Translations under genes and position numbers: made by a program
Notes under the pieces: generated by a model
Told to the model about the DNA's origin: nothing
Seen by the model: only the letters and a program-made list of their open reading frames with translations
The model's database searches: none
Part shown: positions 8,277-60,906 of the stretch, in pieces
Layout of the letters: each line of letters starts with the position of its first letter
Position numbering within the stretch: position 1 is the stretch's first letter
Assembly (NCBI GenBank): GCA_032622095.1
Contig: CP136062.1
Location: 11,993,710 to 12,057,709 of the forward strand
Length of the DNA stretch: 64,000 nucleotides
Direction: 5' to 3'
From: Siphonodentalium dalli
Taxonomy: Eukaryota; Mollusca; Scaphopoda; Gadilida; Siphonodentaliidae

Positions 8277-10075
8277 ATGAAATTGTCAATGACACTGTAG
8301 CTAAACTTTGTAAAGAAGGTAATTTTTTTGTGATGAGCAATGAATACAGAGATTAAAAAGGAGTGTAAAAACGAGCAGTAAAGAATTTAGTCACACACAG
8401 AGTAAAATCCAAGATGGCTGCTGGCGGCCATGTTTTTTGGCCAAATGACCCCAAAATGACTCGTTCCCATCTACATGTTATTGTTAACATCCATGACAAA
8501 TTTCATGATGATCAGACTAAAGGTACAACCTGTAGCCCGTGCTAAAGGATTTAGTCATACAAAGAGTAAAATCCAAGATGGCTGCTGGCGGCCATGTTTT
8601 TTGGCCGAATGACCTCCAAAAAGACTCGTTCCCATCTACATGTCATTATTAACATCCATGACAAATTTTATGATGATCAGACTAAAGTTACGACCTGTAG
8701 CCCGTGCTAAAGGATTTAGTCATACAAAGAGTAAAATCCAAGGTGGCTGCTGGCGGCCATGTTTTTTGGCTGAATGACCCCAAAATGACTCGTTCCCATC
8801 TACATGTCATTGTTAACATCCATGACAAATGTTATGATGATCAGACTAAAGGTACGACCTGTAGCCCGTGCTAAAGGATTTAGTCATACAAAGAGTAAAA
8901 TTCAAGATGGCTGCTGGCGGCCATGTTTTTCGGCCGTATGACCCAAAAATGACTCGTTCCCATCTGCATGTCAATATTAACATCCATGACAAATTTCATG
9001 ATGATCAGATAAACAGTACGACCTGTGGCCCGTGCAAATGGATTGAATTTTGAAATCAAAGATGGCCACTGGCGGCCATGTGTTTTGGCTGAATGACCCC
9101 AAAATGACTCGTTCCCATCTACATGTCATTCTTAACATCCATGACAAATGTTATGGTGATCAGACTAAAGGTACGACCTGTAGCCCGTGCTAAAGGATTT
9201 AGTCATACAAAGAGTAAAATTCATGATGGCTGCTGGCGTCCATGTTTTTGGGCCGAATGACCCCAAAATGACTTGTTCCCATCTGCATGTCAATATTAAC
9301 ATCCATGACAAATTTCATGATGATCAGATAAACAGTACGACCTGTGGCCCGTGCTAATGGATTGAATTTTGAAATCAAAGATGGCCACTGGCGGCCATGT
9401 TTTTTGTCCGAATGACCCCAAAATGACTCGTTCCCATCTACATTCCAATTTCAACAGCCATCACAAATTTCATGATGATCAGACTAAAGGTACGACCTGT
9501 AGCCCATGCTAAAGGATTTAGTCATACAAAGAGTAAAATCCAAGATGGCTGCTGGCGGCCATGATTTTTGCCCGAATGACCCCAAAATGACTCGTTCCCA
9601 TCTATATGTCATTGTTAACATCCATGCAAATGTTATGATGATCAGACTAAAGGTACGACCTGTAGCCCGTGCTAAAGGATTTAGTCATACAAAGAGTAAA
9701 ATTCAAGATGGCTGCTGGCGGCCATGTTTTTCGGCCGTATGACCCCAAAATGACTCGTTCCCATCTGCATGTCAATATTAACATCCATGACAAATTTCAT
9801 GATGATCAGATAAACAGTACGACCTGTGGCCCGTGCTAATGGATTGAATTTTGAAATCAAAGATGGCCACTGGTGGCCATGATTTTTGCCCGAATGACCC
9901 AAAAATGACTCGTTCCCATCTACATGTCATTGGTAACATCCATGATAATTTTATGATGATCAGACTAAAGTTACGACCTGTAGCCTGTGCTAAAGGATTT
10001 AGTCATAGAAAGAGTAAAATCCAAGACGGCTGCTGGCGGCCATGTTTTTTTTGGCCGAATGACCCCAAAATGAAT
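8277..10075 (+). mobile_element. F element, ~11 tandem units of ~163 bp, 3' end missing
   Basis: The header TGTCAATGACACTGTAGCT (8282) is followed by ~11 units. Each carries CAAGATGGCTGCTGGCGGCC, CCCCAAAATGACTCGTTCCC, ATCTACATGTCA and GATGATCAGAC. Units come in two subtypes: a (CAAAGAGTAAAATCCAAG) and b (TTGAATTTTGAAATC). Units at ~9056, 9373 and 9857 are b. The usual tail (see 60823-60906) is absent; the C-rich array follows. Non-repetitive ends around a ~160-bp tandem core recall pearl-like and tandem-bearing non-autonomous elements of bivalves. Confidence 0.85.
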
Positions 10076-19034: not shown

Positions 19035-19645
19035 CAGGACAGGCACCAGCCTAGAGGGCAACTTGGGAGAGGACCAGCCTAGAGGGCAATTTGGGAGAGG
19101 ACCAGTCTAGAGGGCAATTTGGGAGAGGACCAGCCTAGAGGGCAATTTGGGAGAGGACCAGCCTAGATGGCAACTTGGGAGAGGACCAGCCTAGAGGGCA
19201 ACTTGGGAGAGAACCAGCCTAGAGGGTAACTTGGGAGAGGACCAGCCTAGAGGGCAATTTGGGAGAGGACCAGCCAAGAGGGCAATTTGGGAGAGGACCA
19301 GCCTAGAGGGCAACTTGGGAGAGGACCAGCATAGAGGGCAACTTGGGAGAGGACCAGCCTAGAGGGTAACTTGGGAGAGGACCAGCCTAGAGGGCAATTT
19401 GGGAGAGGACCAGCCTAGAGGGTAACTTGGGAGAGGACCAGCCTAGAGGGCAACTTGGGATAGAACCAGCCTAGAGGGTAACTTGGGAGAGGACCAGCCT
19501 AGAGGGCAACTTGGGAGAGAACCAGCCTAGAGGGTAACTTGGGAGAGGACCAGCCTAGAGGGTAACTTGGGAGAGGACCAGCCTAGAGGGTAACTTGTGA
19601 GAGGACCAGCCTAGAGGGTAACTTGGGAGAGGACCAGCCTAGAGG
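19035..19645 (+). repeat. 28-bp minisatellite, ~22 units
   Basis: GAGGACCAGCCTAGAGGGCA then ACTTGGGA. Variants at fixed places (GCAATTT, GTAACTT, GAACCAG) recur in patterns, suggesting block duplication of several units. 28 is not a multiple of three. Confidence 0.97.
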
Positions 19646-19649
19646 GGAA

Positions 19650-19895
19650 CATCTTCTCCCTAACTTGTGTCACTTCTCCCGATATGTAATGACTTAAAAT
19701 TCTCTCTCGCAAATATAAGATTGGGGGGGGGCTAGCCCCGGGATGGTCGAAAGAGCCAATAGGCCCTCTCATTAACCCCCTCATGTGTTTTGCCTTTATT
19801 TATAATTTCTACCAAAAAAAATAAAAACTTTTTGACAAAGATGTTTTTTCTTTTATTTGGGGTGTTGTTTCTCTCCAGAAGATAGGGAGAGAAAC
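19650..19895. other. Unassigned stretch
   Basis: Includes a G run near 19725; no gene or repeat family seen. Confidence 0.5.
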
Positions 19896-20775: not shown

Positions 20776-20857
20776 ACTGTATTTTGTGATTATAATGGTT
20801 TTATAAATGGACTTACTCTTGTAATACTTAAGTGTATCATAGAAGGCTGATTTAAAT

Positions 20858-21350
20858 TCTCCCTGATTACAGTCCACTTCTCCCTGATTACAGTCCACTT
20901 CTCCCTGATTACAGTCCACTGCTCCCTGATTACAGTCCACTTCTCCCTGATTACAGTCCACTGCTCCCTGATTACAGTCCACTTCTCCCTGATTACAGTC
21001 CACATCTCCCTGATTACAGTCCACTTCTCCCTGATTACAGTCCACTTCTCCCTGATTACAGTCCACTTCTCCCTGATTACAGTCCACATCTCCCTGATTA
21101 CAGTCCACTTCTCCCTGATTACAGTCCACTTCTCCCTGATTACAGTCCACTTCTCCCTGATTACAGTCCACTTCTCCCTGATTACAGTCCACTTCTCCCT
21201 GATTACAGTCCACTTCTTCCTGATTACAGTCCACTTCTCCCTGATTACAGTCCACTTCTCCCTGATTACAGTCCACTTCTCCCTGATTACAGTCCACTTC
21301 TCCCTGATTACAGTCCACTTCTCCCTGATTACAGTCCACTTCTCCCCAAT
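20858..21350 (-). repeat. 21-bp minisatellite, ~23 units
   Basis: TTCTCCCTGATTACAGTCCA plus C, with rare A/T or G/T changes (CACATCTCC, CACTGCTCC). Open minus-strand frames through it arise because 21 is a multiple of three. Confidence 0.97.
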
Positions 21351-24559: not shown

Positions 24560-25540
24560 AATAATGGGTAGTATTGTCAGATATCCCATAATGGGTAGTA
24601 TTGTCAGATATCCCATAATGGGTAGTATTGTCAGATATCCCATAATGGGTAGTATTGTCAGATATCCCCTAATGGGTAGTATTGTCAGATATCCCATAAT
24701 GGGTAGTATTGTCAGATATCCCATAATGGGTAGTATTGTCAGATATCCCCTAATGGGTAGTATTGTCAGATATCCCATAATGGGTAGTATTGTCAGATAT
24801 CCCATAATGGGTAGTATTGTCAGATATCCCATAATGGGTAGTATTGTCAGATATCCCATAATGGGTAGTATTGTCAGATATCCCATAATGGGTAGTATTG
24901 TCAGATATCCCATAATGGGTAGTATTGTCAGATATCCCATAATGGGTAGTATTGTCAGATATCCCATAATGGGTAGTATTGTCAGATATCCCATAATGGG
25001 TAGTATTGTCAGATATCCCATAATGGGTAGTATTGTCAGATATCCCATAATGGGTAGTATTGTCAGATATCCCATAATGGGTAGTATTGTCAGATATCCC
25101 ATAATGGGTAGTATTGTCAGATATCCCATAATGGGTAGTATTGTCAGATATCCCATAATGGGTAGTATTGTCAGATATCCCATAATGGGTAGTATTGTCA
25201 GATATCCCATAATGGGTAGTATTGTCAGATATCCCATAATGGGTAGTATTGTCAGATATCCCATAATGGGTAGTATTGTCAGATATCCCCTAATGGGTAG
25301 TATTGTCAGATATCCCATAATGGGTAGTATTGTCAGATATCCCATAATGGGTAGTATTGTCAGATATCCCATAATGGGTAGTATTGTCAGATATCCCATA
25401 ATGGGTAGTATTGTCAGATATCCCATAATGGGTAGTATTGTCAGATATCCCATAATGGGTAGTATTGTCAGATATCCCATAATGGGTAGTATTGTCAGAT
25501 ATCCCATAATGGGTAGTATTGTCAGATATCCCCTAATTTG
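24560..25540 (+). repeat. 27-bp minisatellite, ~36 units
   Basis: ATAATGGGTAGTATTGTCAG then ATATCCC, nearly perfect. Four junctions carry CCTAATG instead of CATAATG (near 24668, 24749, 25289, 25532). Frames are open on both strands because 27 is a multiple of three. Confidence 0.98.
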
Positions 25541-34086: not shown

Positions 34087-35788
34087 GGGTCCCGCACAGC
34101 GGTCCACCTATTTTCTCTTCACACTATTGTGGACCAAGCCTTCCGAGAAGGCCGACGAGTTTACTCATGTTTCATTGACCTAAAAAAAGGCATTTGACAC
34201 CGTGTGGCGCGAGGGATTATTTTATAAGATGAAGAGACAAGGCATTTCGGGAAATTTTCTTAGTGTAATCAGGGATATGTATGCGAAAACGCAATTCTCC
34301 ATAAAACTAAGGGATGGGCTCACGGCTCCAATTGAAACGACAATTGGTGTCAAACAAGGGTGTATCTTGAGCCCGAAAATGTTCAATATCTACCTTAATG
34401 ATCTACCAGCCGAATTTAATGACGGATGTGATCCCATAACAGTTGGAAATTCGATAATCAACTGTTTAATGTACGCTGATGACATTGTCCTACTATCGAG
34501 TAGTGAAAGTGGCTTACAAAATTCATTAGATGTCATCGCATCATACTTTAACAAATGGCAATTAACTGTGAATATTAACAAATCAAAAATATTGGTGTTC
34601 AATAAACCCGGACACCGCTTGAAGCAACTGAAATTTTAAATAAACGACTCTGCATTGTACGTCGTAAATGAATACCGCTATCTGGGGGTAAATATAACGT
34701 CTGCGGGTAAATTCAACCATAAACAGCTCACCAATAAAGGACGCAAGGCACTTTTTACCCTAGAGCGCAAACTACCACTGAGCGAACTTGACATACCAAC
34801 TTGTTGTAAACTGTTTACAAGCACAATTGAGCCAATATCTCTCTATTGTTCTGAGGTTTGGGGACCGATGTGTCTTAATATAGGCAACTGTCGACCAGGA
34901 AGGGCTTTAGAGGATCTATATGATGACCGACCGTATGCTAAACTCAGTCTACATTTCAACAAAAGGCTGCTCGGGTTATCTAAATATAGCTCCAATATCG
35001 GGACACGTGGCGAACTTGGTATATTCCCCGCGGACATCTCGTTAATCATTCGAGCAATAAAATTTTGGTTCCATTTGCTTGAGTTAGATCACAGGGAAAT
35101 AGCATCACAATGTTATAAACATTCCGTCTCAACAAAGCAGTCGACTTGGGTTTCCAGTTTTTCATCCATTTTAGAGCATCTAGGCTTTGGGCCGGTATGG
35201 CAAGCTCAGGCGACTCTCAATAAAACGGCCATTTTACGCTCAATTAAAACACAATTGCAAGGCCGCTACATTGACTGGTGGCGTGCCCAATTGAGAAAAG
35301 ACAAAAAACTCACATTCTATCGGAGGACGAAACATGATTTTCAAATGGAGACATATTTGCAGTTAAATATCAGTAGAACTAACATTTCAAAATTCACACA
35401 GCTACGCATTAGCTCTCACAAATTATCGATTGAAACAGCCCGACATCGAAAACATATCACAAAGTCAAAAGATAAACAATCTGATACATCTACCAACGAC
35501 CATCGTTGCTGTCCCATATGTCTTGACGCGACCGAGGACGAACATCATTTCCTCTTTATATGCCCAGCTTACGCCACTATCAGAACAAGTTTTTTCAACG
35601 ACATCCGTCAAATTTCGGGCATCAATTATTCAATTCTACCAACCGAGGTAGCTTCTGACATTTTCGTGGGTACGTTCGACAGTGAGATAACCACAAGATT
35701 CATCACACTCATAACTAACCTTTTCCACGAAAGAGAGAGAGCAATACTTCGAGATTATTCCAATACTGTGCACCAGTCCACCACTTGA
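34087..35788 (+). pseudogene. LINE reverse transcriptase, catalytic and C-terminal part
   Basis: Copies element RNA into DNA at the target site in live relatives; this copy is dead. In order: GSRTAVHLFSLHTIVDQAF, the motif A region FIDLKKAFDTVWREG (interrupted by one extra A in the run at 34182-34188, a frameshift), GVKQGCILSP, the catalytic YADD at 34472-34483, a TAA stop at 34637-34639 with the frame open again after it, NEYRYLGVNI, SEVWG, and a C-terminal Cys-His cluster C-x2-C-x7-H-x5-C (CPICLDATEDEHH, ICPAY, ~35510-35565). Remaining frames are long, so decay is recent. No other ORF of the element is seen. Confidence 0.92.
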
Positions 35789-43873: not shown

Positions 43874-44477
43874 CCATAAACAGGATCAGCAATGATAGCT
43901 TTTGGATTGGACAGTTGATAGCCAATAAGAATGCTGCGTCCACTCCCGTCATAGTTAGCGATCTCCACGGTTTCCAGCTCAGAATCGGTCCAGTACACAT
44001 GGTTAGATACCCAGTCTACTGTCAAGCCATTACAGCTCGGAATATCTGAAACAGAATCGGTCCAGTACACATGGTTAGATACCCAGTCTACTGTCAAGCC
44101 ATTACAGCTTGGAATATCTGAAACAGAATCAGTCCAGTACACATGGTTAGATACCCAGTCTACTGTCAAGCCATTACAGCTCGGAATATCTGAAACAGAA
44201 TCGGTCCAGTACACATGGTTAGATACCCAGTCTACTGTCAAGCCATTACAGCTCGGAATATCTGAAACAGAATCGGTCCAGTACACATGGTTAGATACCC
44301 AGTCTACTGTCAAGCCATTGCAGCTCGGAATATCTGAAACAGAATCGGTCCAGTACACATGGTTAGATACCCAGTCTACTGTCAAGCCATTACAGCTCGG
44401 AATATCTGAAACAGAATCGGTCCAGTACACATGGTTAGATACCCAGTCTACTGTCAAGCCATTACAGCTTGGAATAT
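43874..44477 (-). CDS. LDL-receptor-related protein exon (YWTD blade) with 7 tandem 72-bp units
   Basis: Encodes part of a six-bladed YWTD beta-propeller of an LDLR-family membrane receptor, extracellular. The innermost form (43874-44045, 172 nt) reads DIPSCNGLTVDWVSNHVYWT, DSELETVEIANYDGSGRSIL, IGYQLSNPKAIIADPVYG: a standard blade with GL.VDW, YWTD, I...DG and P.AI..DP. The donor is consensus (TATGG then GTGAGT, GT at 43872-43873). The first 66 nt plus TTTCAG are repeated 7 times (24 aa each, frame kept), so each unit has an acceptor (GATTCTGTTTCAG). The outermost acceptor has the best tract (GACTTTTATTTCAG, exon start 44477). Entry phase 1 matches the exon at 49817. Read through all units, ~144 extra residues would disrupt the blade. 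The family is clear; the paralog is not. Confidence 0.9.
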
Positions 44478-44512
44478 CTGAAATAAAAGTCACAAATCTT
44501 CATAGTCACGAC

Positions 44513-44713
44513 CGATTTTAAAGTACCCAGTTATGAGAGAGTTGCCAGGGTCAGCCCAATATACATGGTTATACCCAATCTGAAACCAGGGTCAGCCCAA
44601 TATATATGGTTATACCCAATCTGAAACCAGGGTCAGCCCAATATACATGGTTATACCCAATCTGAAACCAGGGTCGGCCCAATATACATGGTTATACCAG
44701 GGTCAGCCCAATG
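44513..44713 (-). pseudogene. Decayed YWTD-type exon piece with 41-bp tandem units
   Basis: After TTTCAG the minus strand reads IGYNHVYWADPGNSLITGYF, close to the W.G.NLYWAD..N.I pattern of LRP propellers, but a TGA follows soon after (~44490). The TTTCAG plus VYWADPG core is repeated ~4.5 times with a 41-bp step (44545, 44586, 44627, 44668, 44697). 41 is not a multiple of three, so read-through would shift frame. Only ~35 bp separate it from the next exon. It is probably a relic or an abandoned alternative exon. Confidence 0.5.
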
Positions 44714-49816: not shown

Positions 49817-49949
49817 CTGGCACTGCGACGTCCATATCAGTTCCATCGAGCTTCGACCGATAGATGGCCCGATGACCCTCAGCAACATCGCACCAGAATA
49901 AGAGCTCATCCTGTATGTCGACAGCCAAACCAATGATTACACCACCATC
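49817..49949 (-). CDS. LDL-receptor-related protein exon (YWTD propeller, upstream exon)
   Basis: Minus-strand exon of 133 nt: DGGVIIGLAVDIQDELLFWC, DVAEGHRAIYRSKLDGTDMD, VAVP plus one G. It has the GLAVD, LFW.D and I.R..LDGT pattern of LDLR class B repeats; the usual YWTD Thr is Cys here (FWCD). The acceptor is ACTGTTTTCAG before GAT (AG at 49950-49951); the donor is CCAG then GTACTA (GT at 49815-49816). Entry phase 0, exit phase 1. Joined to the exon ending at 43874, the last G plus AT makes Asp and gives VAVPDIPSCNGLTVDWV, exactly the blade transition seen in LRP proteins. The next upstream exon was not found before the window end. Which LRP it is stays open. Confidence 0.88.
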
Positions 49950-50340: not shown

Positions 50341-53300
50341 CATGCCTTATAGAAGACGATGTTAGCCTTATAGAAGACGATTTGTTGATTTAAGTATGGT
50401 TTATCGAGGTTTTGGATCATGTACGTAATCATTGTAATACTGCATGCCTTATAGAAGACGATGTTAGCCTTATAGAAGACGATTTGTTGATTTAAGTATG
50501 GTTTATCGAGGTTAAGGATCATGTAATAACAGATATAGAGGATCTATAGAAGACGATTTGTTGATTTAAGTATGGTTTATCGAGGTTTTGGATCATGTAA
50601 TAACAGATATAGAGGATCTATAGAAGACGATTTGTTGATTTAAGTATGGTTTATCGAGGTTTTGGATCATGTAATAACAGATATAGAGGATCTATAGAAG
50701 ACGATTTGTTGATTTAAGTATGGTTTATCGAGGTTTTGGATCATGTAATAACAGATATAGAGGATCTATAGAAGACGATTTGTTGATTTAAGTATGGTTT
50801 ATCGAGGTTTTGGATCATGTAATAACAGATATAGAGGATCTATAGAAGACGATTTGTTGATTTAAGTATGGTTTATCGAGGTTTTGGATCATGTAATAAC
50901 AGATATAGAGGATCTATAGAAGACGATTTGTTGATTTAAGTATGGTTTATCGAGGTTTTGGATCATGTAATAACAGATATAGAGGATCTATAGAAGACGA
51001 TTTGTTGATTTAAGTATGGTTTATCGAGGTTTTGGATCATGTAATAACAGATATAGAGGATCTATAGAAGACGATTTGTTGATTTAAGTATGGTTTATCG
51101 AGGTTTTGGATCATGTAATAACAGATATAGAGGATCTATAGAAGACGATTTGTTGATTTAAGTATGGTTTATCGAGGTTTTGGATCATGTAATAACAGAT
51201 ATAGAGGATCTATAGAAGACGATTTGTTGATTTAAGTATGGTTTATCGAGGTTTTGGATCATGTAATAACAGATATAGAGGATCTATAGAAGACGATTTG
51301 TTGATTTAAGTATGGTTTATCGAGGTTTTGGATCATGTAATAACAGATATAGAGGATCTATAGAAGACGATTTGTTGATTTAAGTATGGATTATCGAGGT
51401 TTTGGATCATGTAATAACAGATATAGAGGATCTATAGAAGACGATTTGTTGATTTAAGTATGGTTTATCGAGGTTTTGAATCATGTAATAACAGATATAG
51501 AGGATCTATAGAAGACGATTTGTTGATTTAAGTATGGTTTATCGAGGTTTTGGATCATGTAATAACAGATATAGAGGATCTATAGAAGACGATTTGTTGA
51601 TTTAAGTATGGTTTATCGAGGTTTTGGATCATGTAATAACAGATATAGAGGATCTATAGAAGACGATTTGTTGATTTAAGTATGGTTTATCGAGGTTTTG
51701 GATCATGTAATAACAGATATAGAGGATCTATAGAAGACGATTTGTTGATTTAAGTATGGTTTATCGAGGTTTTGGATCATGTAATAACAGATATAGAGGA
51801 TCTATAGAAGACGATTTGTTGATTTAAGTATGGTTTATCGAGGTTTTGGATCATGTAATAACAGATATAGAGGATCTATAGAAGACGATTTGTTGATTTA
51901 AGTATGGTTTATCGAGGTTTTGGATCATGTAATAACAGATATAGAGGATCTATAGAAGACGATTTGTTGATTTAAGTATGGTTTATCGAGGTTTTGGATC
52001 ATGTAATAACAGATATAGAGGATCTATAGAAGACGATTTGTTGATTTAAGTATGGTTTATCGAGGTTTTGGATCATGTAATAACAGATATAGAGGATCTA
52101 TAGAAGACGATTTGTTGATTTAAGTATGGTTTATCGAGGTTTTGGATCATGTAATAACAGATATAGAGGATCTATAGAAGACGATTTGTTGATTTAAGTA
52201 TGGTTTATCGAGGTTTTGGATCATGTAATAACAGATATAGAGGATCTATAGAAGACGATTTGTTGATTTAAGTATGGTTTATCGAGGTTTTGGATCATGT
52301 AATAACAGATATAGAGGATCTATAGAAGACGATTTGTTGATTTAAGTATGGTTTATCGAGGTTTTGGATCATGTAATAACAGATATAGAGGATCTATAGA
52401 AGACGATTTGTTGATTTAAGTATGGTTTATCGAGGTTTTGGATCATGTAATAACAGATATAGAGGATCTATAGAAGACGATTTGTTGATTTAAGTATGGT
52501 TTATCGAGGTTTTGGATCATGTAATAACAGATATAGAGGATCTATAGAAGACGATTTGTTGATTTAAGTATGGTTTATCGAGGTTTTGGATCATGTAATA
52601 ACAGATATAGAGGATCTATAGAAGACGATTTGTTGATTTAAGTATGGTTTATCGAGGTTTTGGATCATGTAATAACAGATATAGAGGATCTATAGAAGAC
52701 GATTTGTTGATTTAAGTATGGTTTATCGAGGTTTTGGATCATGTAATAACAGATATAGAGGATCTATAGAAGACGATTTGTTGATTTAAGTATGGTTTAT
52801 CGAGGTTTTGGATCATGTAATAACAGATATAGAGGATCTATAGAAGACGATTTGTTGATTTAAGTATGGTTTATCGAGGTTTTGGATCATGTAATAACAG
52901 ATATAGAGGATCTATAGAAGACGATTTGTTGATTTAAGTATGGTTTATCGAGGTTTTGGATCATGTAATAACAGATATAGAGGATCTATAGAAGACGATT
53001 TGTTGATTTAAGTATGGTTTATCGAGGTTTTGGATCATGTAATAACAGATATAGAGGATCTATAGAAGACGATTTGTTGATTTAAGTATGGTTTATCGAG
53101 GTTTTGGATCATGTAATAACAGATATAGAGGATCTATAGAAGACGATTTGTTGATTTAAGTATGGTTTATCGAGGTTTTGGATCATGTAATAACAGATAT
53201 AGAGGATCTATAGAAGACGATTTGTTGATTTAAGTATGGTTTATCGAGGTTTTGGATCATGTACGTAATCATTGTAATACTGCATGCCTTATAGAAGACG

Positions 53301-53904
53301 ATGTTAGCCTTATAGAAGACGATTTGTTGATTTAAGTATGGTTTATCGAGGTTTTGGATCATGTAATAACAGATATAGAGGATCTATAGAAGACGATTTG
53401 TTGATTTAAGTATGGTTTATCGAGGTTTTGGATCATGTAATAACAGATATAGAGGATCTATAGAAGACGATTTGTTGATTTAAGTATGGTTTATCGAGGT
53501 TTTGGATCATGTAATAACAGATATAGAGGATCTATAGAAGACGATTTGTTGATTTAAGTATGGTTTATCGAGGTTTTGGATCATGTAATAACAGATATAG
53601 AGGATCTATAGAAGACGATTTGTTGATTTAAGTATGGTTTATCGAGGTTTTGGATCATGTAATAACAGATATAGAGGATCTATAGAAGACGATTTGTTGA
53701 TTTAAGTATGGTTTATCGAGGTTTTGGATCATGTAATAACAGATATAGAGGATCTATAGAAGACGATTTGTTGATTTAAGTATGGTTTATCGAGGTTTTG
53801 GATCATGTAATAACAGATATAGAGGATCTATAGAAGACGATTTGTTGATTTAAGTATGGTTTATCGAGGTTTTGGATCATGTAATAACAGATATAGAGGA
53901 TCTA
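50341..53904 (+). repeat. 74-bp satellite array, ~47 monomers
   Basis: Monomer: ATAGAAGACGATTTGTTGAT, TTAAGTATGGTTTATCGAGG, TTTTGGATCATGTAATAACA, GATATAGAGGATCT. Almost no divergence over 3.5 kb. A longer 102-bp variant (GTACGTAATCATTGTAATAC, TGCATGCCTTATAGAAGACG, ATGTTAGCC) occurs at the very start (50341, 50443) and once near the end (53262-53330). On the gene's strand it lies upstream of exon 49817, so probably intronic. Confidence 0.98.
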
Positions 53905-58969: not shown

Positions 58970-60906
58970 TGGCTCGGTCGGGTTTTTTTGCCTACAAGAG
59001 AGCATATGTCTACCCGAGAATCATTAATGAAAGTGTCAATGACACTGTAGCTCAACTTAGGTAGGGGAATAATTTAATGGTCGACAGTAAATGGAGGAAT
59101 AGGAAAAGTGCTAATTGAAATGTCTAAGTAAGAATAGATGTTCATGTCAATATCAACATTCATAACAGGTTTCATAATGATCGGATCAGGGATGTGGTGA
59201 TTATGGTGTGACAAAGGATTTATTGATGCAAAGAGTAAATTCTAAAATGGCCACCGGCAGCCATGTTTTTTTCCGAATTACCCCAAAATGACTTGTTCCC
59301 ATCTACAGCCTTTACAAATCTCATAATGATCTGATCAAAGGTATGACCTGTAGCCTGTGCCAATGGATTTAGACATGCAAAGAGTAAAATCCAAGATGGC
59401 TGCTGGCGGCCATGTTTTTCGGCTGAACGACCCCAAAATGACTCGTTTCCCATCTACATGTCATTTTTAACATACATGACAAATTTCTTGAAGTTCCGAC
59501 CAAAGCTACGACCTGTAGCCTGCACCAAAGGATTTATTCATGCAAAGAGTAAAATCCAATATGGCTGCTGGCGGACATGTTTTTTAGCCAAACGACCCCA
59601 AAATGACTCGTTCCCATCTACATGTTAATATTAACATCCATGATAAATATCATGATGATCAGACAAACAGTACGACCTGTAGCCCGTGCCAATGGATTGA
59701 ATTTTGAAATCCAAGATGGCTGCCAGCGGCCATGTTTTTTGGCCGTATGACCCCAAAATGACTCGTTCCCATCTACATGTCAATGTCAACATTCATGCAA
59801 AATTTCATAAAGGTCAGACCAAAGGTACGACCTGTAACCCGCGCCAAAGGATTCAGTCATGCAAAGAGTAAAATCCAAGATGGCTGCTGGCGGCCATGTT
59901 TTTTGGCTGAACGACCCCAAAATGACTCGTTCCCATCTACATGTCATTGTTAACATCCATGACAAATTTCATGAAGTTCTAACCAAAGCTACAACCTGTA
60001 GCCCGCGCCAAAGAATTTAGTCATGCAAAGAGTAAAATCCAAGATGGCTGCTGGCGGCCATGTTTTTTGGCTGAACGACCCCAAAATCACTCGTTCCCAT
60101 CTACATGTCAATATTAACATCCATGACAAATTTCATGATGATCAGACGAACAGTACGACCTGTAGCCCGCGCCAATGGATTGAATTTTGAAATCCAAAAT
60201 GGCCACCAGCGGCCATGTTTTTTGGCCAAATGACCCCAAAATGACTCGTTCCCATCTACATGTCAATGTCAACATTCATGACAAATTTCATAAAGATCAG
60301 ACCAAAGGTACGACCTGTAGCCCGCGCCAAAGGATTTAGTCATGCAAAGAGTAAAATCCAAGATGGCTGCTGGCGGCCATGTTTTTGGCCGAACAACCCC
60401 AATATCACTCGTTCCCATCTACATGTCATTGTTAACATCCATGACAAATTTCATGAAGTTCCGATCAAAACTACGACCTGTAGCCTGCGCCAAATGATTT
60501 AGTCATGCAAAGAGTAAAATCCAAGATGGCTGCTGACTGCCATGATTTTTGGCCGAACGACCCCAAAATGACTCGTTCCCATCTATATGTCAATATTAAC
60601 ATCCATGACAAATTTCATGATGATCAAACGAACAGTACGACCTGTAGCCCGCGCCAAAGGATTGAATTTTGAAATCCAAGATGGCCACCAGCGGCCATGT
60701 TTTTTGGCCGAATGACCCCAAAACGACTTGTTCCCATCTACATGTCAATGTCAACATTCATGTAAAATTTCATAAAGATCAGACCAAAGGTACGACCTGT
60801 AGCCCGCGCCAAAGGAAATTGTTGACGGACACACGCACACACACACGGACGACGGACGCCAAGCCATGGCAATAGCTCAAACTTACAAAAGTAAGTTGAG
60901 CTAAAA
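58970..60906 (+). mobile_element. F element, complete long copy with a-a-b higher-order units
   Basis: Start AACAAGGGTCGCGCATCAAA; header GAAAGTGTCAATGACACTGT, AGCTCAACTTAGGTAGGGG (59030). About ten ~160-bp units; from 59395 on the subtypes run a, a, b, a, a, b, a, a, b, a ~480-bp higher-order period. Tail GGAAATTGTTGACGGACACA, GCCAAGCCATGGCAATAGCT, AAGTAAGTTGAGCTAAAAA. Both subterminal TAGCTCAACTTA repeats are present. Confidence 0.9.

Follow-up and report, generated by a model that had tools for sequence, protein, structure and literature searches.

The window analyzed here, namely the whole 64,000-nucleotide stretch of S. dalli DNA, corresponds to C2:11993710-12057709 of a 2.23-Gb, nine-contig assembly and contains a seven-fold tandem array within a large, LRP-like gene on the minus strand (C2:11954598-12043658). 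The exons of this host gene were placed by YWTD similarity together with splice signals, and the resulting model covers 13 propeller exons, all of which are open and compatible in phase, giving 793 aa with no stop; the gene carrying the array is intact. It has the YWTD blades (PF00058) of LDL-receptor-related proteins, and its best solved relatives are LRP2 (E 2e-161), LRP4 and LRP6, with LRP2 and LRP6 matching the protein across the entire first propeller. The array lies at the acceptor of exon B, whose flanking introns are long (about 5.3-5.8 kb and 45 kb), exon C being located ~45 kb downstream. The relevant features, in window positions, are as follows.

49817-49949, minus strand: exon A, which precedes exon B; 133 nt, ending in phase 1, with the donor CCAG/GTACTA.
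44545-44698, minus strand: decayed array of the exon B acceptor, 41 bp x 3.8, three units of which start with TTTCAG.
44484-44544, minus strand: intron between the 41-bp and 72-bp arrays, which holds the native polypyrimidine tract and shows no homology to the exon (p=0.69).
43980-44483, minus strand: array of seven 72-bp units, each consisting of TTTCAG (intron end) and the first 66 nt of the exon.
44412-44483, minus strand: unit 1, adjoining the native intron, with A at variable site 14.
44052-44411, minus strand: units 2-6, with weaker acceptors.
43980-44051, minus strand: unit 7, continuous with the remainder of exon B.
43874-44045, minus strand: exon B in its single-unit form; 172 nt, 57 aa, a YWTD blade, with the donor GG/GTGAGT in phase 2.
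43874-44477, minus strand: exon B in its longest form; 604 nt, open throughout, if the unit-1 acceptor is used.

The original prediction described TTTCAG plus 66 nt of a YWTD exon repeated seven times at 72-bp steps in nearly identical form, and our analysis bears this out: TRF reported a period of 72, 7.0 copies, 98% matches and a score of 980, and the units vary at only three positions (14 G/A, 20 T/C and 65 C/T). The junction was likewise found where it had been placed, between exonic TCTG and intronic TTTCAG (GATTCTG^TTTCAG), and each unit combines the intron end with the exon start, which were thus duplicated jointly as claimed; the repeat spans the exon-intron boundary, the splice signal is present in all seven units, and the intron contributes only 6 nt to each. 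The proposal of seven frame-preserving acceptors also holds, as the minus-strand frame is open throughout the seven units and the phase 1 end of exon A fits 7/7 acceptors. Because 66 of the 72 nt were already open exon, any period divisible by 3 keeps the frame (a chance of ~1 in 3). The interval originally singled out is the longest possible exon B, and the 41-bp array was absent from that account. The single-unit form scores above the cut-off for PF00058, and no second copy of exon B or of the junction sequence was found anywhere in the 2.23-Gb assembly. A single-sequence structural model of the seven-unit reading frame (pLDDT 61) showed two strands per unit and low TM, and a PDB search with this model gave no match below E 0.001, so that it was uninformative.

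The 41-bp array is homologous to the 72-bp unit (0/2000 shuffles were as good), begins with the same TTTCAG and stops at almost the same point in the exon, which indicates that the exon B acceptor had been amplified before and that this earlier copy has decayed. We also considered the 41-bp array as an alternative exon; this was ruled out by its frame-breaking period, an in-frame stop and a tail that is not exon-like (p=0.69), and the tail peptide had no other match in the genome.

Tandem repeats are abundant in the surrounding DNA, covering ~27% of the window. They include long minisatellites with highly uniform units (27 bp x 36 at 24561-25537, 21 bp x 23 at 20857-21346 and 28 bp x 22 at 19037-19650), a 74-bp array of ~46 nearly identical copies directly upstream of exon A (50471-53904), and one 164/319/483-bp repeat family whose two arrays, ~50 kb apart, lie on either side of exon B (8379-10073 and 59314-60816). 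A 382-aa open frame on the plus strand (34640-35785) resembles, by eye only, a reverse-transcriptase or retroelement fragment.

The exon B array is not exceptional within this genome. In the host gene, 7 of 26 exon edges lie within local tandem duplications, as counted by an ungapped diagonal scan (gapped self-BLAST misses the short ones at exon N), and both sides of exons are affected, namely the acceptors of B, G and N and the donors of C, H, K and N. The exon C donor carries ~10 repeats, mostly at 21-bp steps (C2:11992209-11992469, outside the window), the exon H donor ten repeats at 91 bp (C2:11969356-11970175, likewise outside), the exon G acceptor four repeats at 136 bp, and the exon K donor and both edges of exon N two copies each. 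The duplicated share is 27% of exon edges vs 30% of intron positions (p=0.83), and 12% of exon bodies; exon edges and introns are thus hit at similar rates, with no preference for splice sites, and a targeted origin at these sites was rejected. Among LRP, kinesin and myosin exons sampled elsewhere, 8/59 showed an edge duplication (L072, L075, L087, L093, L025, L039, L042 and L043), against a flank coverage of 11% in this control set; L042 and L043 are paralogues, leaving seven independent cases. As edge duplications do not exceed the intron background, the array can be explained without an evolved splicing device. A cluster of ~10 matches to myosin head exons was observed at C4:274.2-275.5 Mb, almost every match containing a single in-frame TAG.

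The paralogous LRP exons L042 (C4:9308336-9308455) and L043 (C4:10533617-10533736) lie 1.2 Mb apart and share an 82-bp acceptor array, present in 7 copies in the former and 5 in the latter; as the flanking stretches are ~92-95% alike, this difference points to turnover in copy number. In these arrays, as in that of exon G, every unit has its own tract. The alternative sites at the C, G, H, K and both N edges also behave alike: each one examined gives a stop, and only the exon-nearest site keeps the frame open, so that the exon-nearest site must serve at these six edges if the gene makes this protein. Exon B is the only one of the seven edge duplications in the host gene that leaves every alternative site frame-safe.

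The seven acceptors of exon B are unequal. With no more than 6 nt of intron copied into the unit, unit 1 alone still has the native polypyrimidine tract (GTGACTTTTATTTCAG) ahead of it and retains the best acceptor score: on a model of 69 acceptors, most of them picked by the model itself (an earlier 12-site model being too small), unit 1 scored 12.9 (84th percentile), whereas the inner acceptors scored 5.5-7.3 (4th-14th percentile) and the exon-side, last acceptor at 44045, which has lost the native tract, scored 5.5 (4th percentile). A shorter acceptor model leaves little difference between them (11.3 for unit 1 vs 10.0, the 57th percentile, for the inner sites). Furthermore, all three substitutions among the 72-bp units are synonymous (chance ~0.03), although two of the three fall at CpG and allowing for this raises the value to p ~0.08 by a hand estimate. 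The L042/L043 decoy units, by comparison, show 1 synonymous to 11 nonsynonymous changes (Fisher p=0.009 vs the exon B units); these comparisons were chosen after the data had been seen, and few changes underlie them.

We give about an even chance to the explanation that splicing mainly uses the unit-1 acceptor, with all or a good part of the array being translated. To judge from its anatomy, a young boundary minisatellite, termed a mirage in amphioxus, would have arisen at the exon-intron boundary through tandem duplication, and slippage or unequal exchange would then have enlarged it to seven units. As unit 1 alone still follows the native pyrimidine tract and branch region, it would remain the main site; translation of the array would place as many as six half-blade repeats of 24 residues each (DIPSCNGLTVDWVSNHVYWTDSVS) ahead of the true blade, and the six inner TTTCAGs would probably serve as weaker in-frame alternatives. 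This explanation is favored by the array itself with its junction and open frame, the intactness of the gene, the like arrays at other edges, the amphioxus precedent, the unit-1 acceptor score, the synonymous-only changes and the frame-safe alternatives.

A serious, though less likely, alternative is that the last acceptor is used, which would leave the protein at its ancestral length and the array as neutral decoys. By analogy with the six other edges, 44045 would be the site serving at exon B. The inner sites are ordinary on the shorter acceptor model, and they are preceded by an exonic, branch-point-like CTAAC ~30 nt before the AG and by a 40-nt AG-free stretch, which counts against the predominance of unit 1 and, for the sequence context, in favor of decoys. 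Under the exon-definition rule, long flanking introns favor a short exon, and the long introns on both sides of exon B would thus favor the 172-nt form. The single-unit length agrees with that of solved relatives (residues 8-205 vs LRP6 35-231), LRP6 and LRP2 having no large insertion at the array position, and the amphioxus mirages were reported not to disturb splicing (PMC3087553); both points argue against unit-1 use. Conversely, the exon-side acceptor lacks the native tract, unlike the units of exon G and L042/L043, and synonymous-only substitutions are unexpected in untranslated units.

It is doubtful that splicing is shared about evenly among several acceptors to yield a ladder of isoforms with between one and seven half-blades: each of the seven sites fits the phase of exon A and the shorter model makes the inner ones usable, but unit 1 is clearly stronger on the long acceptor model, and edge duplications at the background rate give no sign of an evolved device. 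We likewise consider it improbable that the array serves as a module of variable length subject to coding selection, with individuals or tissues choosing among the seven in-frame acceptors to produce one to seven half-blades. An assembly artefact, or a collapsed or expanded repeat, is suggested by the near-identity of the units but is very improbable, as three sites differ among them, 504 bp is short relative to long reads, the contigs are chromosome-scale, similar arrays occur at many loci, and the 7 vs 5 copies in L042/L043 look like real turnover.

Taken together, these results partly support the original prediction and alter it on two counts: the array is not an isolated oddity, and its seven acceptors are not equivalent. 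Isoforms with one to seven half-blades are possible; with unit 1 as the strongest acceptor, its use alone would give one long product. The duplicated edges (7/26 in the host gene and 8/59 in the sampled exons) constitute a natural experiment in splice-site choice, with up to ten near-identical sites presented to the spliceosome. The amphioxus genome, in which mirages were described, is much smaller than 2.23 Gb, and such edge duplications occur here in a far larger genome.

Other known systems resemble the locus in part. As in LRP2, LRP4 and LRP6, the gene encodes YWTD propeller blades (PF00058), but these solved relatives have no half-blade repeats at the array position. The units were also considered as Dscam-like, mutually exclusive exons; each has an acceptor, but no frame-compatible donor was seen. 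The array as an intron gained by tandem duplication was similarly rejected: the intron position and phase fit the phase chain of the gene, and no usable donor was seen, the donor-like word TGG/GTATCT in the 72-bp unit leading, when read by eye, to a very short or out-of-frame intron. Intron gain by tandem genomic duplication (PMC4974935) also copies splice signals within a gene, but no new intron is evident at exon B.

The exon B array matches the mirages already described in the amphioxus globin genes BflGb6 and BflGb9 and in the Adh3, TnC and PGBD5 genes (PMC3087553, PMC3902484); our literature search for such boundary arrays in molluscs found none. BflGb6 repeats the 3' end of an intron together with the 5' part of the exon that follows, with 6 units in one haplotype and 3 in another (PMC3087553), and across amphioxus mirages many units bear AG/GT signals, both exon ends are affected and length is unstable (PMC3087553, PMC3902484). 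The exon B array shares with them a minisatellite-like tandem duplication over an exon-intron boundary whose units carry splice signals. The splicing of amphioxus mirages was checked by RT-PCR, which suggested that it is left undisturbed (PMC3087553). Unlike the amphioxus mirages, the exon B unit is 72 bp long, includes only 6 nt of intron and preserves the frame; because any choice of acceptor is frame-safe, which holds for no other duplicated edge of the host gene, this array could reveal how protein repeats emerge from a boundary repeat.
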